64,000 nt of DNA from Zopfochytrium polystomum. Lineage: Eukaryota; Chytridiomycota; Chytridiomycetes; Chytridiales; Chytridiaceae. Shown here piece by piece: positions 2,099 through 57,128 of the stretch. Made by a program: the position numbers and the translations under genes. A model generated the notes under the pieces. The model was not told the DNA's origin, did not search any database, and worked only from the letters and a program-made list of their open reading frames with translations. The stretch is from the NCBI GenBank assembly GCA_025765615.1, contig JAIVFJ010000052.1:1-64000 (forward strand), in the 5' to 3' direction. Within the stretch, counting starts at the first letter, position 1, and the number at the start of each line of letters is the position of its first letter.

Positions 2099-2100
2099 GA

Positions 2101-34592: not shown

Positions 34593-34672
34593 GCAACGGC
34601 AGGACCCGAGCCTTCACACCCAAAGAGTAACAAATTTCGAGTCTGTCGCCTTAACTGCTTGGCCACGTCGTC
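34591..34672 (-). pseudogene. Degenerate tRNA-Ser(CGA)
   Basis: Matches the intact minus-strand tRNA-Ser(CGA) at 43743-43824. It carries changes in the acceptor (GACGACG against CGTTGCC) and the T arm, so pairing is weakened. Confidence 0.6.
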
Positions 34673-34794
34673 CACAAGACTTCCCATGATAGTGACTAGA
34701 TACCTTATTGCTACGCTGTTGGCAGAAAGCCCTCGCCTGGAGTGAACTGTTGCAACAGCCAAACTAAAGCCAAACGTCCTAGGACAGCCAACTG

Positions 34795-35335: not shown

Positions 35336-35337
35336 GT

Positions 35338-35742: not shown

Positions 35743-37136
35743 GGGGAATGGAACCTCCATGGTTTGTAGTTGTTTATTTTCTTGTTTCACATAGAACCCA
35801 ACCATGCAAAAAAAGGCCAGAGAGATCAACACCCTTCTGAATTTTGCCAATCAGCAAGGTTCCATGTTGTGCTTCCCACCTTGGCAGCAGTTTGCTAAAT
35901 ATTCTGGTTTTGGAACGTTCCAAGGAGATCGAATTGTTAACAGGACAAAGCTTAACATGCGGAGATGTCCATATGCCGAACTTGCTTAGTTGGTTTCCGC
36001 TCAACTTATGCGCAATACATCGACAGGTTGATTCCGCCCTCGCATACGCTGATGCATTTTAAATTGTTTAAATTCTGATTGAATGACTTAGCTCATTTTC
36101 CCTGCCCATCAGCACTGTTCAGAGGCTTCACCTAATTTATTATTTATTTTTGGCACTTGTACATACACGCATAGGGTTGGGGGGACTTAGAGCATTTGTG
36201 GTGGATGCTCCAAGTCAGGGGGGTTGACTTGTCAGTTTTCTCTCTCTCTGTTTTTGGGGCCATTTCTCTTTTTCCTTTTTCTTCAATCTGATTTCTGCCC
36301 TTTGGCACCAATACAGAGCTCCTTCAAATCCATCTGGCTCACAACTGCGAGGGTAGTGAGAGGTGGTACACACCCAGGTGAGTACATGGTCCATTCGGGG
36401 GCTCCTCTTAAGGGGCCACGGGTGGGGAATGCAGCTGGCCCCACCACCGACTGTGTGACACTGCTGGCTCTGTGTTGGAGTGAGGATCACAGGCGCTTGC
36501 CCACTGCGGAGGCAACGGCAATGGCGTCGTCGACCCCGCAAGGGTGTTGGTGGCTGCAACCCTGCGCGGTCCCCAACACCTGAGAGTTCGATCTATGAGT
36601 GCCTGCCTCAGTCCTATTGCTGTGAGAGTGAGATGTGTGAGGACAACAGGTTGTTGAGCCTGCAACCTCAAATAAAAAGAGTATACCGCGCTTTTTTTAA
36701 CTGATAACTTGTGAGGATTATCAATTTGACTCGACCAAACAACATTTCACGAAAGTGACGTAACACGGCTGGACCCCATTTCTTATTATTTTCATGGGTT
36801 ATTATTGTCCCTGCAAGCCGAACCACTGAGATTTGGACTGTCTCTTACCCGGTTCAATCCCGGGAGACGGCAGCTGGCTTCAGCATTGCTGTGCTGCATA
36901 CGCCACACAAAACTGCCTTGATGGCCTGATGCGGCTGGCCCCTGTGCACACCTCCAACGTTGTGTGTGTGACATTTGAGAGAACGTGAATTAGAGCCCTC
37001 ATGAGAGCATCCTTCAGCTTCTACAAATCCTTGAAGCCAAGGATTATCAACAAAAATGGTTCTACTATGTTTATGATTAGCTGGAGTGATTATAAACTAT
37101 TGGGGGAGCTTCATTCATTTTTGCAAACATGTGAGC
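35743..37136. other. Repeat B remainder and unassigned DNA
   Basis: 35746-35915 is the displaced end of repeat B. A segment near 36640-36725 reappears inverted at about 60620-60710. Near 36800-36875 a T-arm-like CCCGGTTCAATCCCGGG with AGACGGC resembles a tRNA 3' half, but no complete cloverleaf is visible. No protein gene was seen. Confidence 0.55.
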
Positions 37137-37254
37137 TCTCCATCACTATTCAGTTTTCCACAGGAAGGGCTATATGATGACCCAAGAACAGGCCAATGGA
37201 GGAAGTTGTGGTTATTCTCCTGATCAAATTGGGCAGAAAAATGCAGTGTGTGTT

Positions 37255-37354
37255 GCCTGGTTAGCTCAATCAGTAGAGCGTGTGACTCTTACGGCATGCG
37301 CGACATGTGCACGTGAGCCATCACAAGGCTGTGGGTTTGACCCCCACATTTCTG
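37255..37354 (+). pseudogene. tRNA-Lys(CTT) with intron, 3' acceptor lost
   Basis: Shares its ~120-bp upstream flank with the Lys copy at 2000. Anticodon stem TGTGA/TCACA and T arm are intact and the intron is ~29 nt. The 3' acceptor strand (ATTTCTG) cannot pair with GCCTGGT, so it is probably not a functional tRNA. Confidence 0.65.
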
Positions 37355-38336
37355 TGGCATGAGCAGCTGGATCTAGCGAGGGCATTGTCAGCTACAGCAG
37401 TAGGATGAAACACAAACCCTGCATTTGATTCGAATGACCATTTGGGATTGATTCAAAAGCGATCCCATCATCAGTAAAATTTTCTTATGTCTGACTGTTC
37501 AGCCCAAAAATTGAAAATTTACTGAATCAAATGGCCGAATAACATGGGGAAATTGTCATTTATATTCAGAAAATCAAATCAAATCAAATCAAACATTGAA
37601 AATGACTTGATTTGTGTTAGACCCTATTCAGCAGTTTGGGCATTTACAGTGCGATGAGGGAAAGGTGAATGTCTGTTAAGGTTTTCAGACTCAAAGTGAA
37701 GCTTGGGACGTTTCGCCCTGTATCAGTGTCGAATTGCCAAAGAGCAAATTTCCTTGAGAAGGCAGTGTTTGCTTTTCAGACCCACCAAATTGGTTCATGC
37801 CTCTGCAGGCTTTCATACTGGGCAAAATGCTGACAACACTAACAATTTTTTTTTTTTCTTTATTTTTTTTTTTCCTCGCGCAGTGCAGCCTGCAGCATGT
37901 ATCTAATATGTCTGAACTGATAACAGATACTGAAAACCTCATTTTGGTATTCTTTGGGCATACTACTATTATGCCAAAGCCCCATTTTATCTGTTATCAG
38001 TGAATGTGTTTGGACCTTCAAGTGTGTGCTTTTACCCAAAAGACTGTGGTATTTGCAGTCATTAGACACAGTCCAGCATTGGGTCACCTTGTGCTGCAAA
38101 TTTTGCAAATAGAGTCTGACACTTTTTTGCTGCCACAGGTGCATGGCAGGGGTCCAGACAGAAAAATTGACCGCGTTGCATTTCGTGAAGTCCAATGGCT
38201 TTTGGGGAGTGGTCCTTTGTTTGGTTTTCATACTTTACCCTGCAGCCTGGCCTCTGAGTCTGCAGTGGCATGCCATTTTGATAATGGAGAGTCAACACAA
38301 AACCCAACAATCCTATGGTCATATGCAATCTCTGCC
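37355..38336. other. AAATC-rich and unassigned DNA
   Basis: 37410-37620 is enriched in AAATC/GATTTGA motifs and ends near GACCCTATTCAG. The same two motifs occur at 38910-39170. Poly-T runs lie at 37846-37875. No gene was recognised. Confidence 0.5.
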
Positions 38337-38415
38337 ACACATTTTGAACGCTTCCTTGAATGGGAAAGTGTGAAAAGAATTGGATCAATTGGCAACCATC
38401 TCCAAACTGTAATAT

Positions 38416-38506
38416 GCTGCTGTGGCGCAACTGGTTAGCGCGTGCGGCTGTTAGACATGGTCAGCAGCACACCGCAACGTTGGTGGTTCAAGTCCACCCA
38501 GTAGCG
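38416..38506 (+). tRNA. tRNA-Asn(GTT) with a ~17-nt intron
   Basis: Acceptor GCTGCTG/CAGTAGC pairs fully with one G-U. D arm GCGC/GCGC, anticodon stem TGCGG/CCGCA with GTT, T arm GGTGG/CCACC, discriminator G. The intron follows position 37. The ~80 bp before it recur before the degenerate copy at 32924. No T4 terminator nearby. Confidence 0.82.
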
Positions 38507-38520
38507 ATAACGGTTGTAGA

Positions 38521-39441
38521 TTTGTGTGGACTGTTGCATGGCTGCTGACTCCCAAGGGTGTTGGTTGGCATTCCATTGTGCAAGTCTTCTGCAGAGCTTG
38601 GAAGTTGGATCCTCAGACAGACAAGGGGAAAAACACCACCTGAAGATGATCATGACAAAGTTCCTGCACCCTCAAAGTGCCAAGGGGGGCACTCTCAGGA
38701 AACCAAAACCATCACTTGCCAAAGCAGGGCCATAAGCGCCAGGTGTGGTCTTTTCTGTCTGATTTTGCCATCATATGCTGCAATGAGGGCAACAATCTCC
38801 CTGATGCCACAAGCTTGCCAGCAGCAGAGCTGACAATGATTTCTAGCAGTGATGGACAGCTGCAAAGCACTTTACAAGTAGCGTCTGCCACAGACCAGAT
38901 CCCCATTTGGGTTTGATTTGATTTGATTCTGCTTTCCAGACCCAAATGACAAGAAAAAATGTATTTCCCAGACATTTGAATCTGACAAATGGCTGTTTTT
39001 GCACTCAAATAGCGCCAAATCAAATGGAATTGCGATTTTTTACTTATAAAACCTGAATCAAATCGAATTCAAATCACTCTATACTGGAGAATTCATTTGA
39101 TTCAAGTCTGATTCGAATTCAAATCAAACTCAATTTATTTCAGATTTGACCCAGTTCAGTCTGTGTGGCAGACCCTATTCAGGAGGAAAAGGTACAGCCT
39201 GGACGCCTCCATCTTCCTTTGTTTACCTGCAGGCTACCGCCACTGGCCTGGGGGGTGGGTGGCAAAAGTTTGTCTCTTGCCCCAACCAAGAGCAACAAAA
39301 TCTCTACAAACGCAAACAGCCTGAGTCAGCCATGAAGGATGTAACTGGATGTTGGACTGTGGACACAGTTTTTGCAGCCTAATGTTTTGCTCCAACCGTT
39401 TGTACAAAGGTCGCTGCCCTTGCCACAAGATATCAGACAAA

Positions 39442-39472
<31 letters not shown>

Positions 39473-39864
39473 CAAAAAAAAAACGCAATCAGCACACCCA
39501 ACCCACAGTCCGTCTGCATGAAATGCTGTTTGTCAGAAAGTCAAAACACAGATCAAAAAACCAGGGGGACCAAAAACACAATATTTTAAAACTTAACCTG
39601 TCTGAGCAGCTGGCTGTTCCTTTGTTGAATTGTTGCTGCTATTAGAAGCAGGAACTGCCTACAATACCGCTTTCTGCTTTAAGAAGGAGATGGTTTGGTT
39701 GACTGAACTGTGTTGGGGCAGCAGCTGAGTGGCTGCATGCATCATGGTGGCTCAACCCAGGCCAACTCCAGCTTACATTTCATTCACTTTTTCAACAAAT
39801 GTCCAAACAATTTCTGGCAAGCAAGTGCATATTGCTATCATATTTTTGACAAGTCCAGTCATGT
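38521..39864. other. Unassigned repeat-block DNA
   Basis: Includes AATTC/AAATC-rich sequence (38910-39150) and a poly-A tract at 39447-39483. No coding or RNA gene was recognised. Confidence 0.5.
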
Positions 39865-39938
39865 GGTTTCATGGTGTAGTTGGTTATCACATCTGTCTCA
39901 CACACAGGAGGTCCCGAGTTCGAACCTCGGTGAAACCA
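39865..39938 (+). tRNA. tRNA-Val(CAC), copy 2
   Basis: Identical over 74 nt to 33083-33156, with unrelated flanks. No T4 run within 40 nt downstream. Confidence 0.85.
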
Positions 39939-40632
39939 TGCAGGAAGGGAGCGCAACTCCTGATGACCTGTGCTGCACCGCCTGTCGTGCAGCACAGGTG
40001 AACAGTGTTTGTGTGTGTTGGTCCTTGTCAAATTTCATTGGCAGACTGGTGTCATTTGATGGTCCAAGTGGCCAAACCAACAAGCCAATGGGTTCTTTGC
40101 CAAAACCAGCAATTTGCATTTGTTTGAACAAGCTGCGAATCCAGCATGATGTGGGGGGTTGGACTGTGGAAGCCTGACCAAGACAGGCACTTTACCCCAT
40201 GCAAAGTTGCGCTGTGCAGCATGTGCAACTTTTGCTACATTGATTGAAAAAAGTTTCCCCTCGTGCAAAAAAAAAGTGCAAACTTGCAATGCAATCACTT
40301 GGGTTGCTGGGGTGGGATACTTGGCCTGCCAATTCCAACTGACCATTATCCTTCCTTTAGCTATCTAAATGCCAAACTGACAGCAAGCACAAGTTACAAC
40401 AGACAGCATGGTGGGCAAAGTCTCTTGCTCGAGTCCAGTTTGATTGGCAGGATCCTGATTGTTGCACCTTCATGCTGTTAATCCCCTTGTTATTGGTCCT
40501 CTTGAACACTAGCCACCTGCAGAACGGTAAGGGGGAGTGAAATGAAAAGGCAGAACACACCAACCAAAAAAAAAAAAAAAAACAGGAAACAAGCAGAAGG
40601 CGAATGATGACAGTCTTTCAAAGTTTTTGTGT
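39939..40632. other. Unassigned repeat-block DNA
   Basis: No protein or RNA gene was recognised; an A run lies at 40565-40581. Confidence 0.5.
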
Positions 40633-40705
40633 GGGCATATGGTGAAATGGTTACCGCGTTCGACTTCGGATCGAAAGATTGCAGGTTCGAGTCCTGTTAT
40701 GCTCG
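40633..40705 (+). tRNA. tRNA-Arg(TCG)
   Basis: Acceptor GGGCATA/TATGCTC (one G-U), anticodon stem TTCGA/TCGAA around CTTCGGA, variable AGATT, T arm GCAGG/CCTGT, discriminator G. No T4 run follows. Confidence 0.82.
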
Positions 40706-40931
40706 TGGACTGCTGGAGATACTTCGATGCCTTCAGTTGCAGCAATGGCACCAGGGTTTTGCAAGCGCCAAGTCAAAAGCAGCTTTAAGTGAGCATGCTT
40801 CCAGCCATGCTCATGTTTGAATACTGCAGTTGCAGAGGATCTTGCTGTCTTGCTGTTGGGTAGTGTATGAAAAAAGGCTTCAGGTAGGCTCAGTTGCACC
40901 ACGCTTGTTTGCCTAAAGGGACTTGTGGAGG

Positions 40932-41013
40932 GTCCTGTTGGCGGAGTGATTAACGCGGTGCCCTGCTAAGGCATTTCCCTTTGGGAGCGCAGGTTCGAAT
41001 CCTGTGCAGGACG
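40932..41013 (+). tRNA. tRNA-Ser(GCT)
   Basis: Class II cloverleaf with acceptor GTCCTGT/GCAGGAC, D arm GGCGGAGTGATTAACGC, anticodon GCT, variable-arm stem TTTCCC/GGGAG, T arm with GGTTCGAATCC, discriminator G. It looks intact, unlike the relative at 34126. No T4 run within 30 nt. Confidence 0.82.
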
Positions 41014-41391
41014 AAAGGGGGCTGAATGGCAGCCTCGTTACTTCACTTTATTGTAATTTTCATTTATTTGTTTTCAGATTTTGTGAGCCTCTGGGGTTTG
41101 GGAGTCAGGGCCAAACTGGGTCCGACGCCTAAAAAACAATCTTGCACGTGGGCCAGCTGGCCTTGCCCACTTCTGAGACTTGCTGCAAAAGTTTGAGTGT
41201 GGCAAAGTTTCACTGAAGAGATGACAAGTCCAAGTCTGCCTGACAGCACAGTTGAAGGGGGTGCCAGTGAGACCTTTGGCGCCCTGGGGAACAAGAAAAA
41301 AAACAATGCTGTATCGACTTGAGCCATACAGCCAGCCAGAAATGTCAGTGGTGGCGTGACGTCAACTCTCTGTTTTGCAGAAACACTGGCA
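41014..41391. other. Unassigned DNA between two tRNAs
   Basis: No gene recognised. Confidence 0.5.
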
Positions 41392-41463
41392 GGGGATTTA
41401 GTCTAGTGGTATGATTTCTGCTTTGGGTGCAGGAGGTCCCGGGTTCACTCCCCGGAATCCCCC
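41392..41463 (+). tRNA. tRNA-Pro(TGG)
   Basis: Acceptor GGGGATT/AATCCCC, anticodon stem TTCTG/CAGGA-type with loop containing TGG, T arm CCGGG/CCCGG. It lies about 115 bp left of repeat A copy 2. The equivalent position for copy 1 falls outside the window. No T4 run follows. Confidence 0.82.
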
Positions 41464-41578
41464 GATATCCCACTGTCTCAGGCATGAAAGGTCCCCAAAG
41501 TGCTGGCTGGTCCCATGCATCATTGCCGTAGTGGTGTTTGTGGGTCCAGGGGACCAATGTGGACCTGAAAGGTCCAAA

Positions 41579-43366
41579 GAGCCAGGCATTCTGTGAGTTG
41601 TTTTTCCCAGGTGCTGGACTCAGCACTGGCAGTAGGGGGTGGATGCCATTGGGCCCAAAGTAGCGTCAACCATAACAGAAGCACAGGCATGCCAGCCCAA
41701 GCTCTTGTCATCAGAGTCAAACATTTGTGGCCTCTGTCGACAAGGCGGGTCAAGTCACAGAACTTGATCGAGTTGACAGATCCTTCGAGGGAGTACATGT
41801 AGGCGCAGGTGCAGCTATGGGTGTGGGCTTATGTGTAGCTGTATGGGCAGGCACCTCCATGGTGCTTGCACAGGCACAGTGTCTGGCACAGCGTCTGGCA
41901 CAGCGTCTTGCTGATACCCAGAGTTGCTTCAGGATAAGGCTCGGCGGTTTGCTTAACCAGAGTTCTGACTTGCATTGTTCTGCCCTGAAATATTCCAGTG
42001 AAAGCAAACCACAGGAAACTTTCAAGCAATATATGCCACTGGGTGAAATTTTACATTGTTTTAAGCACTGTGCTGGCCTTAAACCAGTCGGATAAAGCAC
42101 CAGTTCGGTCAAACCGCTGAGCCCTTACTTCAGGATGGACCAGGAGCCAGCTGCCGCTCATCGGCAATCTGCAGGTATGGGTAAAGCGCTGAGGGTGGCG
42201 GCAGTGGGAGTTCAAGTGCAATCCAAGCAGCTGCACAACAAAGCTGTTATTTGGTTGTACATTGAGGCTGCTATCGAGAGGTGAAACATACCAAGAAGTT
42301 TGTGTCTGTGCCAAGTCCAGGCTTGCGTACACACAGGTAAGGGTTCAGACTGTTGAGGAATTCTTGAGATACCACCTGAAACCTGGCCTAGATAAAGTCT
42401 CGCTTTTCCTGTTTTTGTCCCAGTACTGTCCCAGAACCAGCCATCACACAAGGCTTGGTCTTCACACACTGGCCCAAGGGGAATGTTGTTCTTGCCTCTT
42501 CAGCTTGATCTGGTGGCTCTGGCCTAAGAGGACTCACCTTCTCCCTCCTTGGTCAACAATGCACTGGCCAGGAAGAACCACCGCAACAAAGAAAGAACAA
42601 TATGATGGCCCTGAGAGAGAGAGTTTTATTGAGGAAAGTAAGATAGAACATAGATAAAGAGAAAGGGAAAGTGGAAGGGGTGGCAGTGTTTATAGCAGTC
42701 AAGGAGAAAAAGAAAAGACAATAAGAAAGAAAGAAGGAAAGCAAGAAAATGAAACAACACAAAAGAATTAAAAAAGGGAGAAAAGGAAAGAAAAGAACAA
42801 TTTGTAAGGCAACAGCCACACATTCAGCCACACCTCTCTCAAATTTGAAGAGCTTTCCTCAAAATTGACGATGGATGAAATTTGAAGCTCTGGGAGGCCA
42901 CACATCATTGCACAGAAAGGGGATTGAAGAATGGTAAAAGGGAGCGACATCAACCAAAGCAACAAAAAGTAAACAGGAAAGAAAAGGGGTGTGTCCTCTA
43001 TGCTGTGGCCTAGTCAGCCTATGGACAGGACAAAGGTTTGCTGTTATGCAGGATAAATTATGGGAAAGTTTAAAATTAGAATTTTCATGGTGGTGGGCCT
43101 ACTATGCTGGTAATTGTCAATAATTATCTCAGGGAGCGCTTGTAAAACCCCAGCTAACTACTGACCCATGAGATTGAAAATTTCATAGGCCACCCAAAGC
43201 TTTTGGGTTGCATCTACAACTCCAGCAGGCACCAAACACCACTGCTGCAATACGGATCCTCACACTGGCAGCCAGCAACTGGCAAACCACTGGTTTTGTT
43301 TGCTGGTTGTATTGCAGTCATTTCTAAGGATCTAAATCAATAGAATATAGTGACATTTGGACCCAT
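41579..43366. repeat. Repeat A, copy 2
   Basis: Direct-orientation duplicate of 1-1818 with high identity by eye. It lacks about 30 bp present near 1435-1475 of copy 1. No protein was recognised. Confidence 0.9.
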
Positions 43367-43742
43367 ATTGGTGTTGTATGGCTTGGTCTAGTGGCTATTT
43401 ACCTGGCTATTTACCTGGCTATTTACCTGGCTCTCTGTATTGATATCAGGTTGTAGATTTGATTTCCTCCAGAACAAATGAAAGTAGACTTGATGCCAAT
43501 AAATATCAGAGTATTGCTATTGTCACCTGGGAGAGTCTCTGAAGTTTTTTCACATAAGGATTTTTGTGATGTGATCTATGCAATGTTTCTTGGGTATCAG
43601 GACATCAATTTCATTCCTTAGTTACTTCCAGCAGCCTCCAATTATTGGAGAACGACCATGCACCTGTGGCAAAATTCAGGACCCCTAATGGCAATAGAGT
43701 TAACAGCCAGACCACTCTGGCACTGTTTTAAATGCCCTCCAA
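43367..43742. other. Short tandem and unassigned DNA
   Basis: Begins with three 14-bp units (GGCTATTTACCTGG-like) near 43390-43430; otherwise nothing recognised. Confidence 0.5.
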
Positions 43743-43824
43743 CGACAACGGCAGGACTTGAACCTGCGCACCCAAAGAGTAACAGATTTCGAGTCTGTCG
43801 CCTTAACCGCTTGGCCACGTTGTC
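43743..43824 (-). tRNA. tRNA-Ser(CGA)
   Basis: Acceptor GACAACG/CGTTGTC pairs perfectly. D arm GGCCAAGCGGTTAAGGC, anticodon stem around CTCGAAA, class II variable arm, T arm GCAGG/CCTGC, discriminator G. Its degenerate relative is at 34591. No T4 run within 30 nt downstream on the minus strand. Confidence 0.83.
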
Positions 43825-43984
43825 CACAGGGATAGCAGCAGAGCACTGTAACTGTATTATCGCTCTATGCTACACAACTGTTGGCAGAAAGCCCTCACCT
43901 GGAGTGAACCTGCAGTGTCATGAGACAGCCAAACAGAAGCCAAGCATCCTGAGACATCCAACCACAGTCCTAAAGTTAGGTGCA

Positions 43985-44360
43985 GCTAGTAGCAAGAGGT
44001 ACAAGACAGACCTGATCCCAGTGTGACTGTCAGTTATCACTCCACACAATCCCCTTGCTGAGAGAGAGCCATTGCTGGTGCAGACCCAGGTGCTGGCTCG
44101 TGCTGTTGATAAATATTTCTGAGTAAAGTGGAAAGGAAAGCCAGTGAAACCACTTGTTCTCCTCCTCTCCCAAGAGATAATTTTAGGAGAGGTGTTTCCC
44201 CCCCACACCAGTCACCCTCGCCTAGCGATATTGCAGTGTGCAAGGCATCATTATAACCCTGTCTCAGTTATTCATACTAGGGATTTTCAACCTCTTCAAG
44301 CTCAGGAACAGGAACACCCAGAAACACACAAAATACACATGTCTGCCTACTTCAGTGAGG
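43985..44360. repeat. Repeat C, diverged copy
   Basis: Recognisable GTAGCAAGAGGTACAAGACAG start, GACTGTCAGTTATC and TAGGAGAGG segments. It is more diverged than the other copies, especially at the 3' end. Confidence 0.7.
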
Positions 44361-45247
44361 CGCAAGTCAAGGGTACTGATCTCCTGTCCTTAGCCATGAA
44401 TTGAATTCAAGGTACAGGGCTTGCAGCAGGGTATGCACGCTTTTGTGTCCCAAGCCCAGTCACAAGTTGAAATAAGTGTGAGCCATTGTGATCCCCAGTT
44501 TTCCTGCGCAAAAGAGACAGGCTCTGTCTCCTGATGGTGCTCTTTTTGATATTGTTGATAATGTAAGCAGCCCTCTGGTTGTGTGAGATCTCCATGGTCA
44601 ATTTAGACAGAAGCTATAGCCCAAGTGGACCTACAAGGCATACAACTGCGTTTTACACAGCAATTGTTCCAATTCAATCATGAAGGTAGCCACAGCAGAA
44701 GGTTCCAGGCAAAGGAATTCTTTCTTGGAGCATGGCCAGTGGCCATCATCTGGGCTAAAGCAAAAATTTCCACCGGATTGTGTGCCACCAGGTGGTTAAG
44801 TCTGGCCAAATTCATCCAAATTTGGCATGGCATGTCCTGTGGGCCAAAATGCGGTGTATCCTTGACAAGGCTCATTTTCCATCTGCTCCTGCTGATACAT
44901 GTTTGATTCAACTTGAGGATGTCCAAAAAAGAAGGCAGAAAGGACAAGGAATAGATGCACCAACCAGTTGGGAGGGTGGGGAGCAAGCGATGTGGTGTAA
45001 ACTTTTTCTACAGAGTTTTGTTACATTGCCCATTACATCACCCTTCACACCACCCCTTTATTAGCCCAGCTGGTGGCCTAATTGCTCTCAGAGAAGAAAG
45101 AATGCCACTTGGCTCCAGCATGCTTCCAATGAACGCGCACAGTCAGGACCACAACCAACAGATGTTGGAGTACGCTTCTGGAGTGCGTAACCTTGTGGAA
45201 AAGTCTTTTGAGCTGCAGAGGGTGGATGACTCAAGTGTTAGGCGGAA
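44361..45247. other. Unassigned repeat-block DNA
   Basis: Minus-strand open frame 44678-44986 (102 codons) has no motif I can name. No RNA gene was seen. Confidence 0.5.
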
Positions 45248-45652
45248 CTGACTGGTTAGCAGCAAGAGGCACAAGACAGACCCAAACCTATTGTGACTGT
45301 CAGTTATCATTCTCACAATGGCCATGGGAGAGCGAGCCACCACCAATGCAGACCTCGGCGCTGGCTTGTGCTGTTGACAAATACTCCAAGTATTAAGTGG
45401 AACGGAAACCCAGTGTCAACAGTTTTCCTCCTCCTCTGGTCAAGCAGATAATATAGGAGAGGTTTTTACCCGGTGCCGGTCATGCTTGCCTAGCAACTAT
45501 TATAGCGTGCATATCATCATAATGTATCAATTATTCCTAACAGAGCTTTTTCTCTTTCTCTCCAAGTTGGGGAGAAGGACCACCCACAAACACACATCTC
45601 CACTTCATTCACTCCTTCCACTCACTCACTCAGAGTAGACTGTTTACATCAA
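45248..45652. repeat. Repeat C, full-length copy
   Basis: About 405 bp, from ACTGGTTAGCAGCAAGAGG to AGTAGACTGTTTACATCAAG; one of the two best-preserved copies. Confidence 0.8.
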
Positions 45653-46240
45653 GTGTTGTGGTTGCTGGCGATTATGTCGCGAGTGATGTGTTGTGTGAGT
45701 GGTGTCAATGTTGCGGATCAATGACTGCGGTGTCAGTGGTTCCCGACCTGGTGTTGCTAAGGTGCGCTTGCTGCTGTTGGGGATTGAGACAGACAGTCAA
45801 TGTGCTTGTTTTTTCATGTGTGGGTGCGCTGTTTCCAACTTGCTTAACTGCTGAGGGTTGCCCAGCTGTCCCCTTTAAATTGGGAGGCAGTGGCACCACC
45901 TGGAAGTCATCTCTGAGTCACAGTACCTGGGAGGCACAGAGTTGGGAGAGGTTCAGGTGGTGTTAGTTTTGGGTCTTTTGAGGTAAGCAGTGAGCAGGAG
46001 CTTTGACCTGACACTGTGGTGCACAGGGGCACCTTGTGCAAGGATGACTTGCTGCATTTTGCAAGTGATGGTCCTTGTAACAGTTTTGTATAAAGACAAA
46101 CACAAGACCGACAGGAGCCAAACTCAACCTCCCATCACCACCACCTTCAGTAGTGCACTACCTCCATCTCTACAAACAATCTACCCCAACGAATTCTTTC
46201 AGGTGGCGTTGCTGGGAGACATAATGACACCCTACTCCAG
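45653..46240. other. Unassigned DNA
   Basis: No gene recognised between repeat C and repeat B. Confidence 0.5.
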
Positions 46241-46690
46241 CAATGGAGGTAGTGGGGCTCGAACCCACGGCATCTCGCATGCGAAGCGAGCTATCTACCA
46301 CTGATATATACCCCCCCTTATGTCCATGGTTGACTGTAAACTCAAAACCAAAGAAAACTGTCTTAGAGTCCATCAGGGTGCTGGGCTGCTGCGCCAACTG
46401 GCCGCTTCTACATGCTCAACACTCACTGCAACCCAAGGCATCAAGCATCAGTACAAGTGGTAGAAGATTCTCTCTTGGGATGCACTAAGGAACCTGGGGC
46501 TAATGCTCCCTCTGCCCTCTGCTATGACGGAAGGTGTCTCTGTTCTTGTTTCACATAGAACCCAGCCTGTGCAGAAAGGGTCAGAGACCAACACCTTTCC
46601 AAATTTGCCCAACTTATCAGCAAGGTTCTGCGTTACGCTTCCCGCCTTGGCAGCAGTTCCCTAATTATCCTGGTTTTGAGATGATGGCAT
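46241..46690. repeat. Repeat B, copy 3 (uninterrupted right part)
   Basis: From the tRNA-Ala rightward it matches 35053-35335 and then 35746-35915 without the repeat C insertion, so it shows the ancestral arrangement. Confidence 0.75.
46244..46315 (-). tRNA. tRNA-Ala with CGC anticodon
   Basis: Same cloverleaf and repeated surroundings as the two TGC copies, but the anticodon loop reads TTCGCAT, so the anticodon is CGC. The second strand of the anticodon stem is unchanged. No T4 run downstream. Confidence 0.8.
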
Positions 46691-48692: not shown

Positions 48693-49045
48693 TGTCAGGA
48701 ACAGGGCAGGACAGGACAAGGCAGACAAGGAACTGAGAGGAGTGATGATTGTATTGGAAACAATAATTCACTTGAGGGATGGGACAGGTCCCCCATCCCC
48801 CTTTTATACCTTTTGAGAGTGTTCCTTGTCAAGACTCCAAGAAAGTTCCAGAAAGAGCAATTAGTAATGCAATGATACCAATGATACCAATGACAACAAG
48901 ACAAGTCAGGAAAGCAAAGAAGGTTCCAGAAGGTTCCACAAGGTTCCATGAAGGAATGTTCTAGAAGGTTCCAGAAGGTTCCAGAAGGTTCCATGAAGGA
49001 ATGTTCTAGAACGTTCCAGAGGTTTCCAGAGGGTGATTCATAACA
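48693..49045 (-). repeat. 3' LTR of chromovirus copy 1
   Basis: 353 bp; 5 bp longer than the nested copy's LTRs, through variation in the GAACCTTC array. It carries the TATAAA box and R-start motif. Confidence 0.92.
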
Positions 49046-50638
49046 TCATCTCCCCCTTTTAGGCCTCTTCTGCAACTTGGTGGGGTACCTGGTCTTGAAC
49101 TCGAGCAGAAGGTCTTGGCAGTGAGTGAGGTTTGACTCAGGCTCCCAGGTGTTGTCAGCATTTGAGTAACCTTTCCACTTAACAAGGAACTTGAGTGTTC
49201 TTCCAAACCACTTGGCATCCAAGATTTGTTCAACCTCAAATTCCTCTTCACCTTCTACCTCAACTGGAGGAGGAGGAGGAACAACTCTGCCTGGAATGGA
49301 ATTGGCCACAAACTTCTCCAAAAGGCTGACATGGAAAACTGGGTGGATCTTCATGGATGCAGGGAGATCCAGCTTGAAGGTGACTGGATTGATTTGCTCC
49401 AAGATCTTGAAAGGTCCCAACTTGAGGTTGTCTAGCTTGGGACTTGGTCTTTTGGTCTGCAAGTTCTTCCTCATGCCTGGCCAGTAAAAGTCTCTGGAAA
49501 CAAGCTCATATGTCTTGTGCTCTCGTGGGTGTCCAGCTGTTGCTCCATCATGCCTTGTCTTGAGTATCTCAAGTTTTTCCTCTTCTTGGCTGATTTGAAT
49601 CTTGTGAGGCTTGGGGTCCTTGGAAATAGCATGGGCCCACACATGGTCAGGAAGCAGTGAAAGGTGTGTCTTGGATTGTGGGGTGAAACCATCTCCCCCT
49701 TCAGGTGCAAGGTCTGTCCTTCTGTGCTCATCAGCAGTGGGGCTTGAATTGTTGACTGGGAACTGTGATTCTTGAACCTTTGACTGAGGGTTCTGTTCTT
49801 GGCAAAGGCTGTGAGCTGTGGAGCTTGAATCTTGAATTTGGACTGTGAACTGTGGTACTTGAATCTTTGACTGTGGGTTCTGTGAACTACAGACTTGGCC
49901 ATGACTGTGAGCTCTGTGAGCTCTACTTGAATCTTGACTGTGAACTGTGAACTGTGGAACTTGAGTCTTGGCTGGGATTTGTGAACTGCAGGGTGACACT
50001 GGAGTCTTTGGTGGTTGACCTTTAATACCTGGCTGTGAACCTTGAATCAAGGTCTTGCGAGCATGAGACTTGGAGGCTTGACTTGAGTTTTGGGTGACTG
50101 TTCCAATTGGTGGAGGTTGGACTTGACCAGTTACCCAATCAATGTCAGGGTTCTGGGCTTGCAGCCATGGTAATCCCAGGATGACAGAGAATGTGGGTGA
50201 GCCAAGATCCAATACTTCCAGGTTGACCATGGATGGTGGAAAGTCTTGGATGTGGAGGTTTAGCTTGGTTTCATGGCTGATTTCCTTGAACAGAGCATGA
50301 TTGGCAAAGTGGACCTTGAGGGGTGTGGATTTCTTGATGGTGGGAATGGCACAAGACTTGGCAAGGGTGGCATCAATGATGTTGCAGGATGATCCAGAGT
50401 CGATAAGGGCCTTGGTTGTGATGGTTGACTTGGGTGAGAGTTGAATCTTGACATCCATGGTGAGTTGGTGGGGCTTGGAATCTGAGGTGTTTGTGGTGCT
50501 GGTGGTGGTGATGAAACAGGGGCAGCTTGGAGGAGGGTCCAGGGAATTGCCCCTCAGTGAGCCTGGACCTGGGAGTTTGGGTGCTTCTTCCTTGGGCAGT
50601 CCTTGACAGCATGCTCCTTGGAGCCACAGTAAAAACAC
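49046..50638 (-). CDS. pol: Chromovirus pol remnant: protease, integrase N-part, chromodomain
   Basis: Overlaps gag by 85 nt in the -1 frame; translation would enter by slippage at CCCAAAC (50575-50581). A retropepsin domain (ALIDSGSSCNIID) is followed by a repetitive linker rich in QSKIQVPQFTVQ-like units. A truncated integrase zinc region (AGHPREHKTYEL...FYWPGMRKN) is fused directly to the post-integrase GPF region and a C-terminal chromodomain (FLVKWKGYSNADNTWEPE). No YxDD reverse-transcriptase motif and no integrase D,D,E core are present. The frame has no internal stop. Chromodomains of this class bind modified histone H3 and guide insertion; that role here is by family. Confidence 0.85.
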   Translation of the reverse strand: MFLLWLQGACCQGLPKEEAPKLPGPGSLRGNSLDPPPSCPCFITTTSTTNTSDSKPHQLTMDVKIQLSPKSTITTKALIDSGSSCNIIDATLAKSCAIPTIKKSTPLKVHFANHALFKEISHETKLNLHIQDFPPSMVNLEVLDLGSPTFSVILGLPWLQAQNPDIDWVTGQVQPPPIGTVTQNSSQASKSHARKTLIQGSQPGIKGQPPKTPVSPCSSQIPAKTQVPQFTVHSQDSSRAHRAHSHGQVCSSQNPQSKIQVPQFTVQIQDSSSTAHSLCQEQNPQSKVQESQFPVNNSSPTADEHRRTDLAPEGGDGFTPQSKTHLSLLPDHVWAHAISKDPKPHKIQISQEEEKLEILKTRHDGATAGHPREHKTYELVSRDFYWPGMRKNLQTKRPSPKLDNLKLGPFKILEQINPVTFKLDLPASMKIHPVFHVSLLEKFVANSIPGRVVPPPPPVEVEGEEEFEVEQILDAKWFGRTLKFLVKWKGYSNADNTWEPESNLTHCQDLLLEFKTRYPTKLQKRPKRGR

Positions 50639-51477
50639 AGTCCCTGCTGGGCCCTCCTTGTTTTCTCCTCTTGGCTCAGAGGACCCTTAGGAAGTGTCTC
50701 AACTGCATCCACTTGCATGGGTTCAGGAACTGTGAGAGCTTGAGGAACTGGGGTAGGTCTTGATGTAGTTCCTACTTGTCTTTGCTTCAGCCTCTTGGAG
50801 TAGAGTCTGTTGTCAATCTTGATGGCAAGGAGAATGTACTCTTCCAAGGTCTCAGGGATGTGCAGAGACTGGGAGAGCATGTCTTGGATAGACTCATGGA
50901 GACCATCATGGTACAGCTCCATCAGAGCTGCATCATTGTATCCAGAGTCTCTGGCTAGTTGCTTGAATTGGTTGGTGTAGGCCACACAAGATTGCTTTCC
51001 TTGCTTGATATGCTTGAGCTTGGATCTTGCTGTCCAAGATGCGTAGGGGTCACCAAAGGTAGCTTCCAGCCCCTCCCAGAGCTCTTGCAGGGTGTTGGGT
51101 GTGCTTGGGAGAGATCTGTACCATGATTGAGCTTGACCAGACAGGAGGGTGCTTGTGAAAAGAACCTTGACTTGCTCACTGGGAAATCTTGAAGGTTGGA
51201 GAAGGATGACATTCTCCACAGTGGCCATGAAGTTCCTAAGGTCTTTGGCCAGCCCAGTGAACTTGTCAGGGCTGGGAACCTTGGGCTCTCTTGCTTGGTT
51301 GGCTTGAGGCAGGGGAAGAGCTTGGTGTTCTTGTTGGTGAAGTTGTTGTTGAAGCTGGTGCTGCTGGTGAAGGACTTGTTCTTGAAGTTGGTGTGTCTGT
51401 CTTGAGAGGGCTTGTAATTGGTCCATCAAGGCTTGGAAGGCAGTTGCATCAGGGAAGGTGTTGTTTGGGTCAGACAT
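50554..51477 (-). CDS. gag: Chromovirus Gag
   Basis: 307 residues from MSDPNNTFPDATAF. A Gln-rich coiled segment (residues ~20-55) precedes the capsid-like retrotransposon-gag block (KFTGLAKDLRNFMATVEN, SQAQSWYRSL-type, YTNQFKQLARD). The C-terminal nucleocapsid zinc knuckle CFYCGSKEHAVKDC follows. It is intact and nearly identical to the gag at 54346, despite the deleted pol. Confidence 0.92.
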   Translation of the reverse strand: MSDPNNTFPDATAFQALMDQLQALSRQTHQLQEQVLHQQHQLQQQLHQQEHQALPLPQANQAREPKVPSPDKFTGLAKDLRNFMATVENVILLQPSRFPSEQVKVLFTSTLLSGQAQSWYRSLPSTPNTLQELWEGLEATFGDPYASWTARSKLKHIKQGKQSCVAYTNQFKQLARDSGYNDAALMELYHDGLHESIQDMLSQSLHIPETLEEYILLAIKIDNRLYSKRLKQRQVGTTSRPTPVPQALTVPEPMQVDAVETLPKGPLSQEEKTRRAQQGLCFYCGSKEHAVKDCPRKKHPNSQVQAH

Positions 51478-51517
51478 GATGGCAGAGAGTAGTGGGAGAG
51501 GGTGAAGTGAATTATGA

Positions 51518-51870
51518 TGTCAGGAACAGGGCAGGACAGGACAAGGCAGACAAGGAACTGAGAGGAGTGATGATTGTATTGGAAACAATAATTCACTTGA
51601 GGGATGGGACAGGTCCCCCATCCCCCTTTTATACCTTTTGAGAGTGTTCCTTGTCAAGACTCCAAGAAAGTTCCAGAAAGAGCAATTAGTAATGCAATGA
51701 TACCAATGATACCAATGACAACAAGACAAGTCAGGAAAGCAAAGAAGGTTCCAGAAGGTTCCACAAGGTTCCATGAAGGAATGTTCTAGAAGGTTCCAGA
51801 AGGTTCCAGAAGGTTCCATGAAGGAATGTTCTAGAACGTTCCAGAGGTTTCCAGAGGGTGATTCATAACA
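51518..51870 (-). repeat. 5' LTR of chromovirus copy 1
   Basis: 353 bp, visually identical to 48693-49045. Next to it, the 11-nt PBS lies at 51505-51515. Confidence 0.92.
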
Positions 51871-52448: not shown

Positions 52449-53952
52449 TTAGGGGAGAAGGAAATGGGAACGAAGCAAGGTGAAGGAGTCAGCTGGAAGG
52501 GGCTTTGTGAGGATGTCAGTGACCATTTCCTGAGAGCGGAGATGCTGGAAGTCGATGATGTGCTGCTGTACCTTTTCACGGATGAAGTGATGGCAAATGT
52601 CAATGTGCTTAACCTGATTGGAAAGCTTCTGGTTCTTGGCGACGGCAATGGCACTGCGATTATCTTCGTAGATTATGGTTGGACCACCAGATTGAGGGAC
52701 ACTGAGGTCAGACAGAAGTTGACAGAGCCAGAGGACTTCCTGTGTGGTGGAGGAGAGGGCCATGTATTCAGCTTCGAGTGTGGAAAGCGCAACAGTGGCC
52801 TGGACGTGACTGCGCCAGGAAATGGGACCTCCAGCGTAGAATTGAACAAAGCCTGTTGTGGAGCAGCAATCAAAGGTAGTGCCCCAAAATCAGCATTGGA
52901 GAAGCTGTGGAGCGGTGGGCGTTGAAGGTTACTAGTGGTGGCAGCGGGTCCAGCATAGGCAAAGTGGCTGAAACAGACAAGGGACTGGGACAAGGCAGAG
53001 TAGGTGATGCCGTAGGGTAAGGTACCACGGAGATAGCGGAGAATGCGTTTGGCAGCAACCCAGTCAATTTCAGTTGGGCAACTGAGGCGGCGACTAAGGC
53101 AGGCAACAGCCATGGAGATGTCAGGGCAAGTACCCAAGGAGAGATAGAGTAGACAGCCAATGAGTTCTGCAAAAGGCTCAGACATAGGAGCGGAGGAGGG
53201 GTCTGGCGTATACGAGGTGTGCATGGGGGTGGAAACAGAGGCGCAGTCCGACATGCCAAAACGTTGGAGGATGGACTTAGCATAGCCAGTCTGATGAACA
53301 CGCACGCGAGTGAGATCAGGGGACTGCTCAATCTCGAGACCAATGAAGTAGCAGAGGAGGCCAAGATCTTTCATGCGAAATTGGGCGCAGAGGGACCTTA
53401 ATTGCGGAGATTTCAGTGGAGGTCGATCCAGCAATAAGGAGATCATCAACATAGGCTAAAATGAAACTCGTGAGACCATCACGAACACAAACATACACAC
53501 ACGCGTCTGCCAGGGAAGGCGTGAACCCAATAGACTGGAGATAATCATCCAGAGTCTTGTTCCAGAGGTGAGGTGCCTGCTTCAGCCCATACAGGGAACG
53601 TTTAAGCTTCCAGACATGATTGAGTTTTCCAGGGGCAACGTGACCAACAGGTTGCTCAATGTAAACGTCGCGGTCAATGGGTGCATAGAGGAAAGCGGTA
53701 GTGACGTCCATGTGGTGGATGGAGAGGCGCTTGCGAGCACAGACGGCAAGCACACTGCGAATGCTGGAGAGTTTTGCAGTTAGGGCAAAAATGTCGTCGA
53801 AGTGGACGCCAGCGACTTGCTGGTAACCTTTGGCAACAAAACGCGCTTTATACCATGTGGGGCAACCATTTGCGTCTCTCTTGATCCGAAATACCCAGCG
53901 TGAAGGGAGGACAAGAGTGTCAATTGGGCGCAGGACGAGGTCTGCGACGTCG
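52449..53952 (-). pseudogene. Copia reverse transcriptase-RNase H, 3' part of pol
   Basis: Starting at the chromovirus insertion point it reads through typical copia RT: SRWVFRIKRDANG, FVAKGYQQVAGV, FDDIFALTAKLSSIRSVLA, MDVTTAFLYAPID and LYGLKQAPHLW, with catalytic YVDDLL near 53450. A frame change near 53400 leads to MKDLGLLCYFIGLEIEQ. Another near 52850 leads to RNase H (STLEAEYMALSSTTQEVLWL, YEDNRSAIAVAKN, KHIDICHHFI). The stop is at 52449. Two frameshifts make it non-functional. Confidence 0.88.
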
Positions 53953-53957: not shown

Positions 53958-54305
53958 TGTTATGAATCACCCTCTGGAAACCTCTGGAACCTTCTAGAAC
54001 ATTCCTTCATGGAACCTTCTGGAACCTTCTGGAACCTTCTAGAACATTCCTTCATGGAACCTTGTGGAACCTTCTGGAACCTTCTTTGCTTTCCTGACTT
54101 GTCTTGTTGTCATTGGTATCATTGGTATCATTGTATTACTAATTGCTCTTTCTGGAACTTTCTTTGAGTCTTGACAAGGAAGACTCTCAAAAGGTATAAA
54201 AGGGGGATGGGGGACCTGTCCCATCCCTCAAGTGAATTATTGTTTCCAATACAATCATCGCTCCTCTCAGTTCCTTGTCTGCCTTGTCCTGTCCTGTTCC
54301 TGACA
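53958..54305 (+). repeat. 5' LTR of nested chromovirus
   Basis: 348 bp, TGTTATG to CTGACA. TATAAA at 54195-54200. Putative transcript start at AAGTGAATTAT, 54230-54240. Confidence 0.93.
53983..54090 (+). promoter_or_regulatory. Heat-shock-element-like array in the LTR
   Basis: Alternating GAA and TTC triplets with 2-nt spacers. Four units in perfect phase lie at 53987-54004 and eight in perfect phase at 54012-54049, with more up to about 54085. This is the nGAAnnTTCn pattern bound by heat-shock factor trimers. It lies about 110-210 bp upstream of the TATA box, and another GAA/TTC pair occurs near 54153-54163. All LTR copies in the window have it; unit number varies. Confidence 0.7.
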
Positions 54306-54307
54306 TC

Positions 54308-54318
54308 ATAATTCACTT
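54308..54318 (+). promoter_or_regulatory. Self-priming primer binding site
   Basis: ATAATTCACTT lies 2 nt after the 5' LTR and is the exact reverse complement of AAGTGAATTAT (54230-54240), 35 bp past the TATA start. No TGG-starting match to a tRNA 3' end is seen. This is the arrangement of Tf1-type elements, whose mRNA 5' end folds back to prime cDNA synthesis. Confidence 0.75.
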
Positions 54319-54345
54319 CACCCTCTCCCACTACTCTCTGCCATC

Positions 54346-55269
54346 ATGACTGACCCAAACAACACCTTCCCTGATGCAACTGCCTTCCAAGCCTTGATGG
54401 ACCAATTACAAGCCCTCTCAAGACAGACACACCAACTTCAAGAACAAGTCCTTCACCAGCAGCACCAGCTTCAACAACAACTTCACCAACAAGAACATCA
54501 AGCTCTTCCCCTGCCTCAAGCCAACCAAGCAAGAGAGCCCAAGGTTCCCAGCCCTGACAAGTTCACTGGGCTGGCCAAAGACCTTAGGAACTTCATGGCC
54601 ACTGTGGAGAATGTCATCCTTCTCCAACCTTCAAGATTTCCCAGTGAGCAAGTCAAGGTTCTTTTCACAAGCACCCTCCTGTCTGGTCAAGCTCAATCAT
54701 GGTACAGATCTCTCCCAAGCACACCCACCACCCTGCAAGAGCTCTGGGAGGGGCTGGAAGCTACCTTTGGTGACCCCTACGCATCTTGGACAGCAAGATC
54801 CAAGCTCAAGCATATCAAGCAAGGAAAGCAATCTTGTGTGGCCTACACCAACCAATTCAAGCAACTAGCCAGAGACCCTGGATACAATGATGCAGCTCTG
54901 ATGGAGCTGTACCATGATGGTCTCCATGAGTCTATCCAAGACATGCTCTCCCAGTCTCTGCACATCCCTGAGACCTTGGAAGAGTACATTCTCCTTGCCA
55001 TCAAGATTGACAACAGACTCTACTCCAAGAGGCTGAAGCAAAGACAAGTAGGAACTACATCAAGACCTACCCCAGTTCCTCAAGCTCTTACAGTTCCTGA
55101 ACCCATGCAAGTGGATGCAGTTGAGACACTTCCTAAGGGTCCTCTGAGCCAAGAGGAGAAAACAAGGAGGGCCCAGCAGGGACTGTGTTTTTACTGTGGC
55201 TCCAAGGAGCATGCTGTCAAGGACTGCCCAAGGAAGAAGCACCCAAACTCCCAGGTCCAGGCTCACTGA
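54346..55269 (+). CDS. gag: Chromovirus Gag
   Basis: 307 residues, from the ATG about 40 nt past the LTR. It has the same domain order as the minus-strand copy: Gln-rich N-region, capsid-like block with LAKDLRNFMATVEN and YTNQFKQLARD, and zinc knuckle CFYCGSKEHAVKDC near residues 282-295. Only a few residues differ from copy 1. The last codons contain the slippery site, and the TGA stop sits in the predicted loop of the frameshift structure. Confidence 0.93.
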   Translation: MTDPNNTFPDATAFQALMDQLQALSRQTHQLQEQVLHQQHQLQQQLHQQEHQALPLPQANQAREPKVPSPDKFTGLAKDLRNFMATVENVILLQPSRFPSEQVKVLFTSTLLSGQAQSWYRSLPSTPTTLQELWEGLEATFGDPYASWTARSKLKHIKQGKQSCVAYTNQFKQLARDPGYNDAALMELYHDGLHESIQDMLSQSLHIPETLEEYILLAIKIDNRLYSKRLKQRQVGTTSRPTPVPQALTVPEPMQVDAVETLPKGPLSQEEKTRRAQQGLCFYCGSKEHAVKDCPRKKHPNSQVQAH

Positions 55270-56780
55270 GGGGCAATTCCCTGGACCCTCCTCCAAGCTG
55301 CCCCTGTTTCATCACCACCACCAGCACCACAAACACCTCAGATTCCAAGCCCCACCAACTCACCATGGATGTCAAGATTCAACTCTCACCCAAGTCAACC
55401 ATCACAACCAAGGCCCTTATCGACTCTGGATCATCCTGCAACATCATTGATGCCACCCTTGCCAAGTCTTGTGCCATTCCCACCATCAAGAAATCCACAC
55501 CCCTCAAGGTCCACTTTGCCAATCATGCTCTGTTCAAGGAAATCAGCCATGAAACCAAGCTAAACCTCCACATCCAAGACTTTCCACCATCCATGGTCAA
55601 CCTGGAAGTATTGGATCTTGGCTCACCCACATTCTCTGTCATCCTGGGATTACCATGGCTGCAAGCCCAGAACCCTGCCATTGATTGGGTCACTGGTCAA
55701 GTCCAACCTCCACCAATTGGAACAGTCACCCAAAACTCAAGTCAAGCCTCCAAGTCTCATGCTCTCAAGTCCCTGATTCAAGGCTCTCAGCCTAGTATCC
55801 AAGGTCAACCACAAATGACAGCTCCAGTATCAGCCTGCAGCTCACAGATCCCAGCCAAGATTCAAGTTTCACAGTTCACAGTTCATAGTCAAGATTCCAG
55901 CACAGCTCATAGAGCTCACAGTCATGGCCAAGTCTGTAGTTCACAGAACCCACAGTCAAAGATTCAAGTACCACAGTTCACAGTCCAAATTCAAGATTCA
56001 AGCTCCACAGCTCACAGTCTTTGCCAAGAACAGAACCCTCAGTCAAAGATTCAAGAATCACAGTTCCCAGTCAACAATTCAAGCCCCACTGCTGATGAGC
56101 ACAGAAGGACAGACCTTGCACCTGAAGGGGGAGATGGTTTCACCCCACCTTCCAAGACACACCTTTCACTGCTTCCTGACAGTGTGTGGGCCCATGCTAT
56201 TTCCAAGGACCCCAAGCCTCACAAGATTCAAATCAGCCAAGAAGAGGAAAAACTTGAGATTCTCAAGACAAGGCATGTTGCAGCAACAGCTGGACACCCA
56301 GGAGAGCACAAGACATATGAGCTTGCTTCCAGAGACTTTTACTGGCCAGGCATGAGGAAGAACTTGCAGTCCAAAAGACCAAGTCCCAAGCTAGACAACC
56401 TCAAGTTGAGACCTTTCAAGATCTTGGAGCAAATCAATCCAGTCACCTTCAAGCTGGATCTCCCTGCATCCATGAAGATCCACCCAGTTTTCCATGTCAG
56501 CCTTTTGGAGAAGTTTGTGGCCAATTCCATTCCAGGCAGAGTTGTTCCTCCTCCTCCTCCAGTTGAGGTAGAAGGTGAAGAGGAATTTGAGGTTGAACAA
56601 ATCTTGGATGCCAAGTGGTTTGGAAGGACACTCAAGTTCCTTGTTAAGTGGAAAGGTTACTCAGATGCTGACAACACCTGGGAACCTGAGTCAAACCTCA
56701 CTCACTGCCAAGACCTTCTGCTCAAGTTCAAGACCAGGTACCCCACCAAGTTGCAGAAGAGGCCTAAAAGGGGGAGATGA
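55185..56780 (+). CDS. pol: Chromovirus pol remnant: protease, integrase N-part, chromodomain
   Basis: Open in the -1 frame relative to gag; actual entry is expected at 55242-55248. It holds retropepsin (ALIDSGSSCNIID, then FSVILGLPWL), a repetitive Gln/Ser linker, a partial integrase zinc region (AGHPGEHKTYEL, FYWPGMRKN), a GPY-like region and a chromodomain (FLVKWKGYSDADNTWEPE). RT, RNase H and integrase core are absent, with junctions identical to copy 1. The frame ends in the polypurine tract just before the 3' LTR. Confidence 0.87.
   Translation: MFLLWLQGACCQGLPKEEAPKLPGPGSLRGNSLDPPPSCPCFITTTSTTNTSDSKPHQLTMDVKIQLSPKSTITTKALIDSGSSCNIIDATLAKSCAIPTIKKSTPLKVHFANHALFKEISHETKLNLHIQDFPPSMVNLEVLDLGSPTFSVILGLPWLQAQNPAIDWVTGQVQPPPIGTVTQNSSQASKSHALKSLIQGSQPSIQGQPQMTAPVSACSSQIPAKIQVSQFTVHSQDSSTAHRAHSHGQVCSSQNPQSKIQVPQFTVQIQDSSSTAHSLCQEQNPQSKIQESQFPVNNSSPTADEHRRTDLAPEGGDGFTPPSKTHLSLLPDSVWAHAISKDPKPHKIQISQEEEKLEILKTRHVAATAGHPGEHKTYELASRDFYWPGMRKNLQSKRPSPKLDNLKLRPFKILEQINPVTFKLDLPASMKIHPVFHVSLLEKFVANSIPGRVVPPPPPVEVEGEEEFEVEQILDAKWFGRTLKFLVKWKGYSDADNTWEPESNLTHCQDLLLKFKTRYPTKLQKRPKRGR
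55242..55304 (+). promoter_or_regulatory. -1 ribosomal frameshift signal
   Basis: Slippery heptamer C CCA AAC (55242-55248) in the gag reading frame is followed by a 5-nt spacer. A perfect 8-bp stem comes next, GGTCCAGG (55254-55261) with CCTGGACC (55280-55287). Loop bases GGGGCA (55270-55275) can pair with TGCCCC (55299-55304), giving a possible H-type pseudoknot. It lies in the gag/pol overlap and shifts into the pol frame. The same sequence occurs in copy 1. Confidence 0.75.
56766..56780 (+). promoter_or_regulatory. Polypurine tract
   Basis: AAAAGGGGGAGATGA lies immediately before the 3' LTR, the position from which plus-strand cDNA is primed in LTR elements. It overlaps the pol stop codon. 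Confidence 0.8.
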
Positions 56781-57128
56781 TGTTATGAATCACCCTCTGG
56801 AAACCTCTGGAACCTTCTAGAACATTCCTTCATGGAACCTTCTGGAACCTTCTGGAACCTTCTAGAACATTCCTTCATGGAACCTTGTGGAACCTTCTGG
56901 AACCTTCTTTGCTTTCCTGACTTGTCTTGTTGTCATTGGTATCATTGGTATCATTGTATTACTAATTGCTCTTTCTGGAACTTTCTTTGAGTCTTGACAA
57001 GGAAGACTCTCAAAAGGTATAAAAGGGGGATGGGGGACCTGTCCCATCCCTCAAGTGAATTATTGTTTCCAATACAATCATCGCTCCTCTCAGTTCCTTG
57101 TCTGCCTTGTCCTGTCCTGTTCCTGACA
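56781..57128 (+). repeat. 3' LTR of nested chromovirus
   Basis: 348 bp, identical by eye to 53958-54305. Confidence 0.93.

Follow-up and report, generated by a model that had tools for sequence, protein, structure and literature searches.

Does the LTR of a chytrid retrotransposon contain a heat-shock promoter that the host's own heat-shock factor (HSF) would read? The question is raised by the LTR at 53958-54305 of the Zopfochytrium polystomum DNA analysed here (64,000 nucleotides, hereafter the window), in which the initial annotation had noticed GAA and TTC units alternating with 2-nt spacing, four and then eight in phase, upstream of a TATA box. That pattern is present as described, at 53987-54004 and 54012-54049, and the LTR, which starts TGTTATG and ends CTGACA, holds two runs beyond the pair named at the time, one of four units (54067-54084) and one of three (54150-54162). 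Runs of 4, 8, 4 and 3 give 19 perfect alternating units with exact 2-nt spacers (CC, CA, TG and TA within the array), and the last run lies 33-45 bp from the TATA box, ending 33 bp before it. The LTR is laid out as follows.

53958-54305, forward strand: 5' LTR of element E2, 348 bp, TG...CA, identical to 56781-57128, with target duplication TTTTC
53987-54004, forward strand: heat-shock-element (HSE) run of 4 alternating GAA/TTC units, from sequence and shuffles
54012-54049, forward strand: HSE run of 8 units, overlapping the 45-bp module that is missing from the 308-bp LTR
54067-54084, forward strand: HSE run of 4 units
54150-54162, forward strand: separate TATA-proximal HSE of 3 units
54195-54201, forward strand: TATAAAA
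54230-54244, forward strand: putative start of R, RNA 5' end and self-primer, AAGTGAATTAT, complementary to the primer-binding site (PBS)
54306-54320, forward strand: PBS, which would pair with the RNA 5' end in Tf1-like self-priming, from complementarity and fold

The initial annotation had proposed a comparison with shuffled LTRs, and this reveals clear enrichment: of 10,000 dinucleotide shuffles, 141 had a longest run of three units and a single one had four, against the observed 4, 8, 4 and 3. Across the window, GAAnnTTCnnGAAnnTTC occurs 23 times, whereas 100 shuffles yield 0.01 on average. The array is a tandem repeat as well, to which Tandem Repeats Finder assigns periods of 10, 35 and 45, and we therefore simulated random 10-bp tandem units as a control; such units yield the HSE grammar in 1075 of 400,000 simulations (0.27%). 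The proximal three-unit HSE falls outside the tandem part, and shuffling the non-array remainder of U3 20,000 times produced a three-unit run in 48 cases.

The position of the array relative to the transcription start can be judged from the priming signals. AAGTGAATTAT, beginning at 54230, is complementary to ATAATTCACTT directly after the LTR, and the R/PBS stretch has a fold z-score of -2.6, with 4 of 200 shuffles equally stable. Complementarity between R and the PBS is known from self-priming elements of the Tf1 kind. It would place the RNA 5' end about 35 bp past the start of the TATA box, and the array therefore in the U3 of a real promoter, at about -243 to -146 relative to the putative start, with the proximal HSE at -80 to -68. 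The same geometry recurs in the 40 LTRs sampled from the genome (see below), 35 of which have TATAAAA 34 bp ahead of the R motif CAAGTG; the distance is 32 and 35 bp in two others and the box is absent in three.

HSE runs are found in 5/5 LTRs of the window, as had been stated at the outset. The accompanying statement that the number of units varies among LTRs of 308, 348 and 353 bp holds for the 308-bp LTR, which lacks one 45-bp HSE module and a perfect proximal run and has only runs of 4 and 6, but not for the other two lengths, whose runs are equal (4, 8, 4 and 3) and which differ by five bases in U5. The LTRs belong to E2 (53958-57128, forward strand) and to two further copies.

1943-2848, forward strand: end of the integrase/chromodomain frame of a third copy (PF24626, PF00385)
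2849-3156, forward strand: 3' LTR (308 bp) of this third, truncated copy, with HSE runs of 4 and 6
48693-51870, reverse strand: element E1, another short copy, with 98% identity to E2 across 3167 bp and target duplication GTCTT
48693-49045, reverse strand: 3' LTR of E1, 353 bp, identical to 51518-51870
51518-51870, reverse strand: 5' LTR of E1, 353 bp, with HSE runs of 4, 8, 4 and 3
54346-55269, forward strand: ORF1, gag with a zinc knuckle (PF03732, E 3e-12; PF00098, E 0.005, below its cut-off)
55185-56780, forward strand: ORF2, protease and integrase H2C2 joined to an SH3-like domain and a chromodomain, from Pfam and alignment
56781-57128, forward strand: 3' LTR of E2, 348 bp, identical to 53958-54305

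E1 and E2 are separate insertions whose target duplications differ. The TG...CA LTRs with 5-bp target duplications (TTTTC and GTCTT), the chromodomain (PF00385) at the C-terminus of the integrase in ORF2 and at 1943-2848, and the PR-RT-RH-IN order of a copy on contig C1, in which Asp protease, RVT_1, RNase H, H2C2 and rve follow one another (locus L062), all agree with the chromovirus label given earlier. Membership in the ONSEN family, which is of the Ty1/copia type, is ruled out by this Ty3 domain order. A Pfam scan of the E2 proteins found no reverse transcriptase (RT), RNase H or integrase core; relative to the C1 copy, E2 has two deletions, one taking RT and RNase H and the other the integrase core, and a single open frame spans both junctions. 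Junction 1 of E1 is exactly that of E2, and the two align at 98% over their whole length. Both complete window copies are internally deleted and non-autonomous, in the case of E1 on the strength of the shared junction 1 and the alignment. The sequence of the first-deletion junction has 288 genome matches at up to 3 mismatches (131 forward, 157 reverse), as against 352 (183 and 169) for the RT active-site stretch of the C1 copy, a figure that counts the stretch rather than intact copies, and E1 and E2 therefore appear to be members of a spreading non-autonomous lineage. A search with the LTR returned at least 41 places 100% identical to the query over at least 339 bases, and at least 8 pairs 2823-2830 bp apart, as in the short element; these are lower bounds, as 40 of 954 first-look candidates were scored.

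Several observations concern the surroundings of these copies. On contig C6, R motifs recur every 3171 bp (360046-372730; L110, C6:363000-366500), which suggests a tandem array of a short E2-related element in which the place of the second deletion holds about 400 bp more. E2 may have inserted into a Copia-type reverse transcriptase fragment (PF07727), which lies immediately upstream of it at 52673-53452. The stretch 30001-46315 is dense, with 13 Rfam tRNA matches, and has 236- and 126-nt repeats nearby.

Genome-wide, the R motif occurs 2197 times at up to 3 mismatches (1082 and 1115), corresponding to about 2,200 LTRs. Perfect four-unit HSEs of the GAAnnTTCnnGAAnnTTC type number 7339 sites, compared with 10 for the reversed pattern, and on contig C1 all 19 of the 19 GAAnnTTCnnGAAnnTTC clusters among the matches listed belong to the LTR family. 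Probably, then, almost every perfect four-unit HSE in the genome comes from this family, a reading based on the C1 clusters and, for the rest, on the counts. The 40 LTRs of our sample were selected on an exact R motif as the sole criterion and came from the first 100 places in the list. Contig C1 was excluded, and most pairs contributed a single LTR; requiring an exact motif favours young copies. A run of at least three units of its own is present in 39/40 and one of at least four in 36/40, with 3-27 HSE units in total per LTR, so that at least three contiguous inverted nGAAn units lie in U3 upstream of the TATA box in sampled LTRs as in the window. The LTRs without a four-unit run are L075, L094, L095 and L112, of which L095 and L112 have alignments of just 125 and 92 bp; L075, the sole one without its own run of three or more, is truncated just above the TATA box and has L076 as its neighbour. 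The main U3 classes, of 226, 271 and 316 bp, are 45 bp apart, and array length among copies often differs by repeat units. The association of fewer units with greater divergence among copies reflects decay, and we give it no weight in the argument. The idea that non-autonomous elements have larger arrays than full-length ones was dropped, both LTR types being found in both element classes. Outside the host, a gag search returned 24 proteins, the best of them 68% identical and on a 1,174-bp contig; a scan of viral contigs found no gag relative, and the 8-unit HSE pattern matches three viral contigs.

If these arrays are HSEs, the host should encode a protein able to read them and use the same grammar in its own heat-shock promoters. 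HSF domains are matched 14 times in the Z. polystomum genome, at 11 places, three with an internal stop and with differing sequence types among them, and the HSF protein on contig C19 keeps the conserved recognition helix SFVRQLNMYGF, as in solved HSF2. From 33 HSP20-domain matches, some of them second exons, we obtained 20 upstream regions, or 19 after removal of one cut by a contig end (L128). A four-unit HSE with 11/12 core bases is present in 14/19. Among 2000 background pieces, which were overlapping draws from window 5-29 kb and from the HSF and methylase loci, the top score was 10/12 (none at 11), and 6/2000 shuffled promoters reached 11. A TATA box lies 34-93 bp downstream of the HSE start in 13/14 of the HSE-bearing regions. 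These 14 sites are not independent events, because the final 300 bp are common to L068 and L069 and identical site sequences recur in others. The remaining five HSP20 regions (L063, L065, L129, L130 and L131) have no 11/12 HSE. For HSP70, three of eight regions (from 58 matches) contain an 11/12 HSE, each with a TATA box; both features are missing from the remaining five. No strong HSE is present in either of the HSP90 upstream stretches examined. Taken together, the shuffles, the position relative to the TATA box and the putative RNA start, the host HSP20 and some HSP70 promoters, and the host HSF genes support the conclusion that the HSE grammar sits within a real U3 promoter.

Constraint on the GAA/TTC cores offers a further line of evidence. 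In 39 pieces chosen regardless of the array (L076 was dropped, as its piece overlaps L075), substitutions amount to 13/1543 in cores, 13/783 in spacers and 99/6351 at other U3 positions. Bootstrap ratios are 0.23-0.84 for core to other and a borderline 0.20-1.01 for core to spacer, and a base-matched comparison gives 13 core changes observed against 21.8 expected (P 0.03). An earlier version that added 19 C1 copies picked for the array gave a stronger result, on which we do not rely. The signal in favour of constraint is weak and not decisive; most copies are probably dead, so this test has little power.

We consider HSF-driven, stress-induced transcription from the LTR to be the best explanation of these observations, and a likely one. 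The array would be an enhancer of a self-primed, Ty3-type (chromovirus) LTR promoter, whose alternating GAA/TTC units host HSF trimers would bind cooperatively under heat or protein-damage stress. Bound HSF would then recruit transcription to the TATA box, with RNA starting about 35 bp further on. Extra 45-bp modules would add binding sites and presumably promoter strength, and the window copies, which have no RT and integrase core, would rely on enzymes from RT-bearing copies elsewhere. Both the binding of HSF to the array and its induction by stress are predicted here from sequence. Counting against this explanation are the host upstream regions without a strong HSE (5/19 for HSP20, 5/8 for HSP70 and both for HSP90), the weakness of the base-matched constraint signal, and the fact that units multiply by tandem duplication, for which selection is not required.

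That last point is central to an alternative in which the array is a neutral 10/45-bp minisatellite spread by replication slippage and its likeness to HSEs is accidental. The periods of 10, 35 and 45 found by Tandem Repeats Finder, the shifts of array length by repeat units that are often seen, and the weak base-matched constraint signal are what this account would lead one to expect, but it would need a random 10-bp unit to have formed the grammar, as happens in 0.27% of cases, and a second, separate perfect HSE to have arisen nearer the TATA box (48/20,000 shuffles). It also has to contend with the same grammar before the TATA box in many host HSP20 promoters and with the runs of at least four units kept in 36/40 sampled copies, and we regard it as unlikely.

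A different possibility accepts that a protein reads the array but supposes an HSF-type repressor or other factor, so that the LTR is silenced or timed rather than heat-induced. Fungal HSF-type proteins include repressors, and a factor like Sfl1 or Skn7 would fit. With HSF-domain matches of differing types at 11 places, several proteins could read GAA/TTC; on the other side, heat presumably induces the host small-HSP promoters that share this grammar, and it is not obvious how repression would benefit a family of about 2,200 LTRs, which makes this reading decidedly unlikely. Highly improbable, in our judgement, is a role of the array in DNA or RNA structure or in integration (a hairpin, nucleosome phasing or recombination) instead of factor binding. 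Dense near-palindromic units at about one helical turn would suit such a role, and a solo LTR with matching flanks (L060) and the probable tandem element array point to recombination between LTRs. The array, though, lies upstream of the putative RNA start and so would be absent from the RNA 5' end, its spacers CC, CA, TG and TA break full palindromy, and the match to host HSP promoters would be left unexplained.

The family has another unusual feature, the near-absence of CpG. Observed/expected ratios are 0.02 in E2 (4 CpG in 3171 bp), 0.04 in E1 (7 in 3178) and 0.05 in the internal piece of the C1 copy (12 in 4349), compared with 0.84-1.41 in window 5-29 kb and 0.90-1.16 at HSF and HSP loci; most other low-GC stretches of the window have ratios of about 0.2-0.7. 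The depletion extends to codons, with 0/29 arginines encoded by CGN in E2's two frames against 14/17 in the host HSF frame. The genome has 19 matches to cytosine methyltransferase (PF00145), one on C53; those on small contigs may be contaminants. The small contigs C638 and C421 contain several DNA-methylase domains in close proximity (L114, L116 and L117), which may come from bacterial contamination. According to the review PMC13297926, 5mC is largely replaced by 6mA in early-diverging fungi, among them chytrids, which argues against 5mC as the cause of the CpG loss unless Z. polystomum differs. We infer that the CpG loss may represent escape from methylation. A broader and, in our view, doubtful proposal is that the family is the genome's main reservoir of high-affinity HSF sites, and that its strength depends on how many 45-bp modules are present. 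The LTR arrays, in their thousands, would then compete under stress with HSP genes for HSF, buffer the heat-shock response and place ready heat-shock promoters beside new genes, and the almost complete loss of CpG throughout the active lineage, including its ORFs, would remove the targets of CpG methylation and so leave these promoters open to HSF.

How does this family compare with known systems? Self-primed chromoviruses of the Tf1/sushi type have a chromodomain, PR-RT-RH-IN order and an RNA 5' end complementary to the PBS. The Z. polystomum family shares the chromodomain, the domain order and the R/PBS complementarity, and we know of no HSE array in that group. A literature search of limited scope found no published report of the LTR HSE array of Z. 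polystomum.

The closest fungal parallels are TCN3 and TCN12 of Cryptococcus, LTR retrotransposons whose mobilisation is described as elevated at 37 C and whose LTRs have one or two putative HSEs (PMC12810828). Both cases thus involve fungal LTR retrotransposons with putative HSEs in the LTR, but instead of one or two elements Z. polystomum has a module-repeated array in a family of about 2,200 LTRs. The same source presents transposon activation through the host heat-shock machinery as shown in plants and animals and undescribed in fungi (PMC12810828), and the Z. polystomum family would be a very clear fungal candidate for it. Its LTRs have many sites each, natural variants span 3-27 units, recent copies still have identical LTRs, and the host HSP promoters could serve as internal controls, so that one genome could show how transposon output depends on the number of HSF sites. 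The family would also allow one to ask whether HSF is titrated by sites in the thousands and whether an element that has lost CpG escapes silencing more readily.

A plant example is ONSEN/ATCOPIA78 of Arabidopsis, for which HSF binding to nTTCnnGAAn in the LTR and heat activation are reported as demonstrated (PMC3907296). The likeness lies in an LTR promoter with HSE-type elements; ONSEN is a Ty1/copia element of a plant, whereas the chytrid family is of the Ty3 type; four of the five LTRs in the window hold 19 units each, and sampled copies range from 3 to 27. For dominance of the genomic HSE repertoire, the nearest case is that of the Caenorhabditis Helitrons, whose clustered HSEs are given as 61.4% of genomic HSEs in C. 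elegans (PMC6927752). There, one transposon class supplies most HSEs of a genome, as the chytrid family probably does for perfect four-unit HSEs, although Helitrons are DNA transposons and the family described here is an LTR retrotransposon. Heat-responsive LTR elements in plants and putative HSEs in TCN3 and TCN12 were thus already known; what stands out in Z. polystomum is how dense the array is and how it grows by modules, together with the size of the family (about 2,200 LTRs), its apparent dominance among perfect HSEs and the near-absence of CpG.
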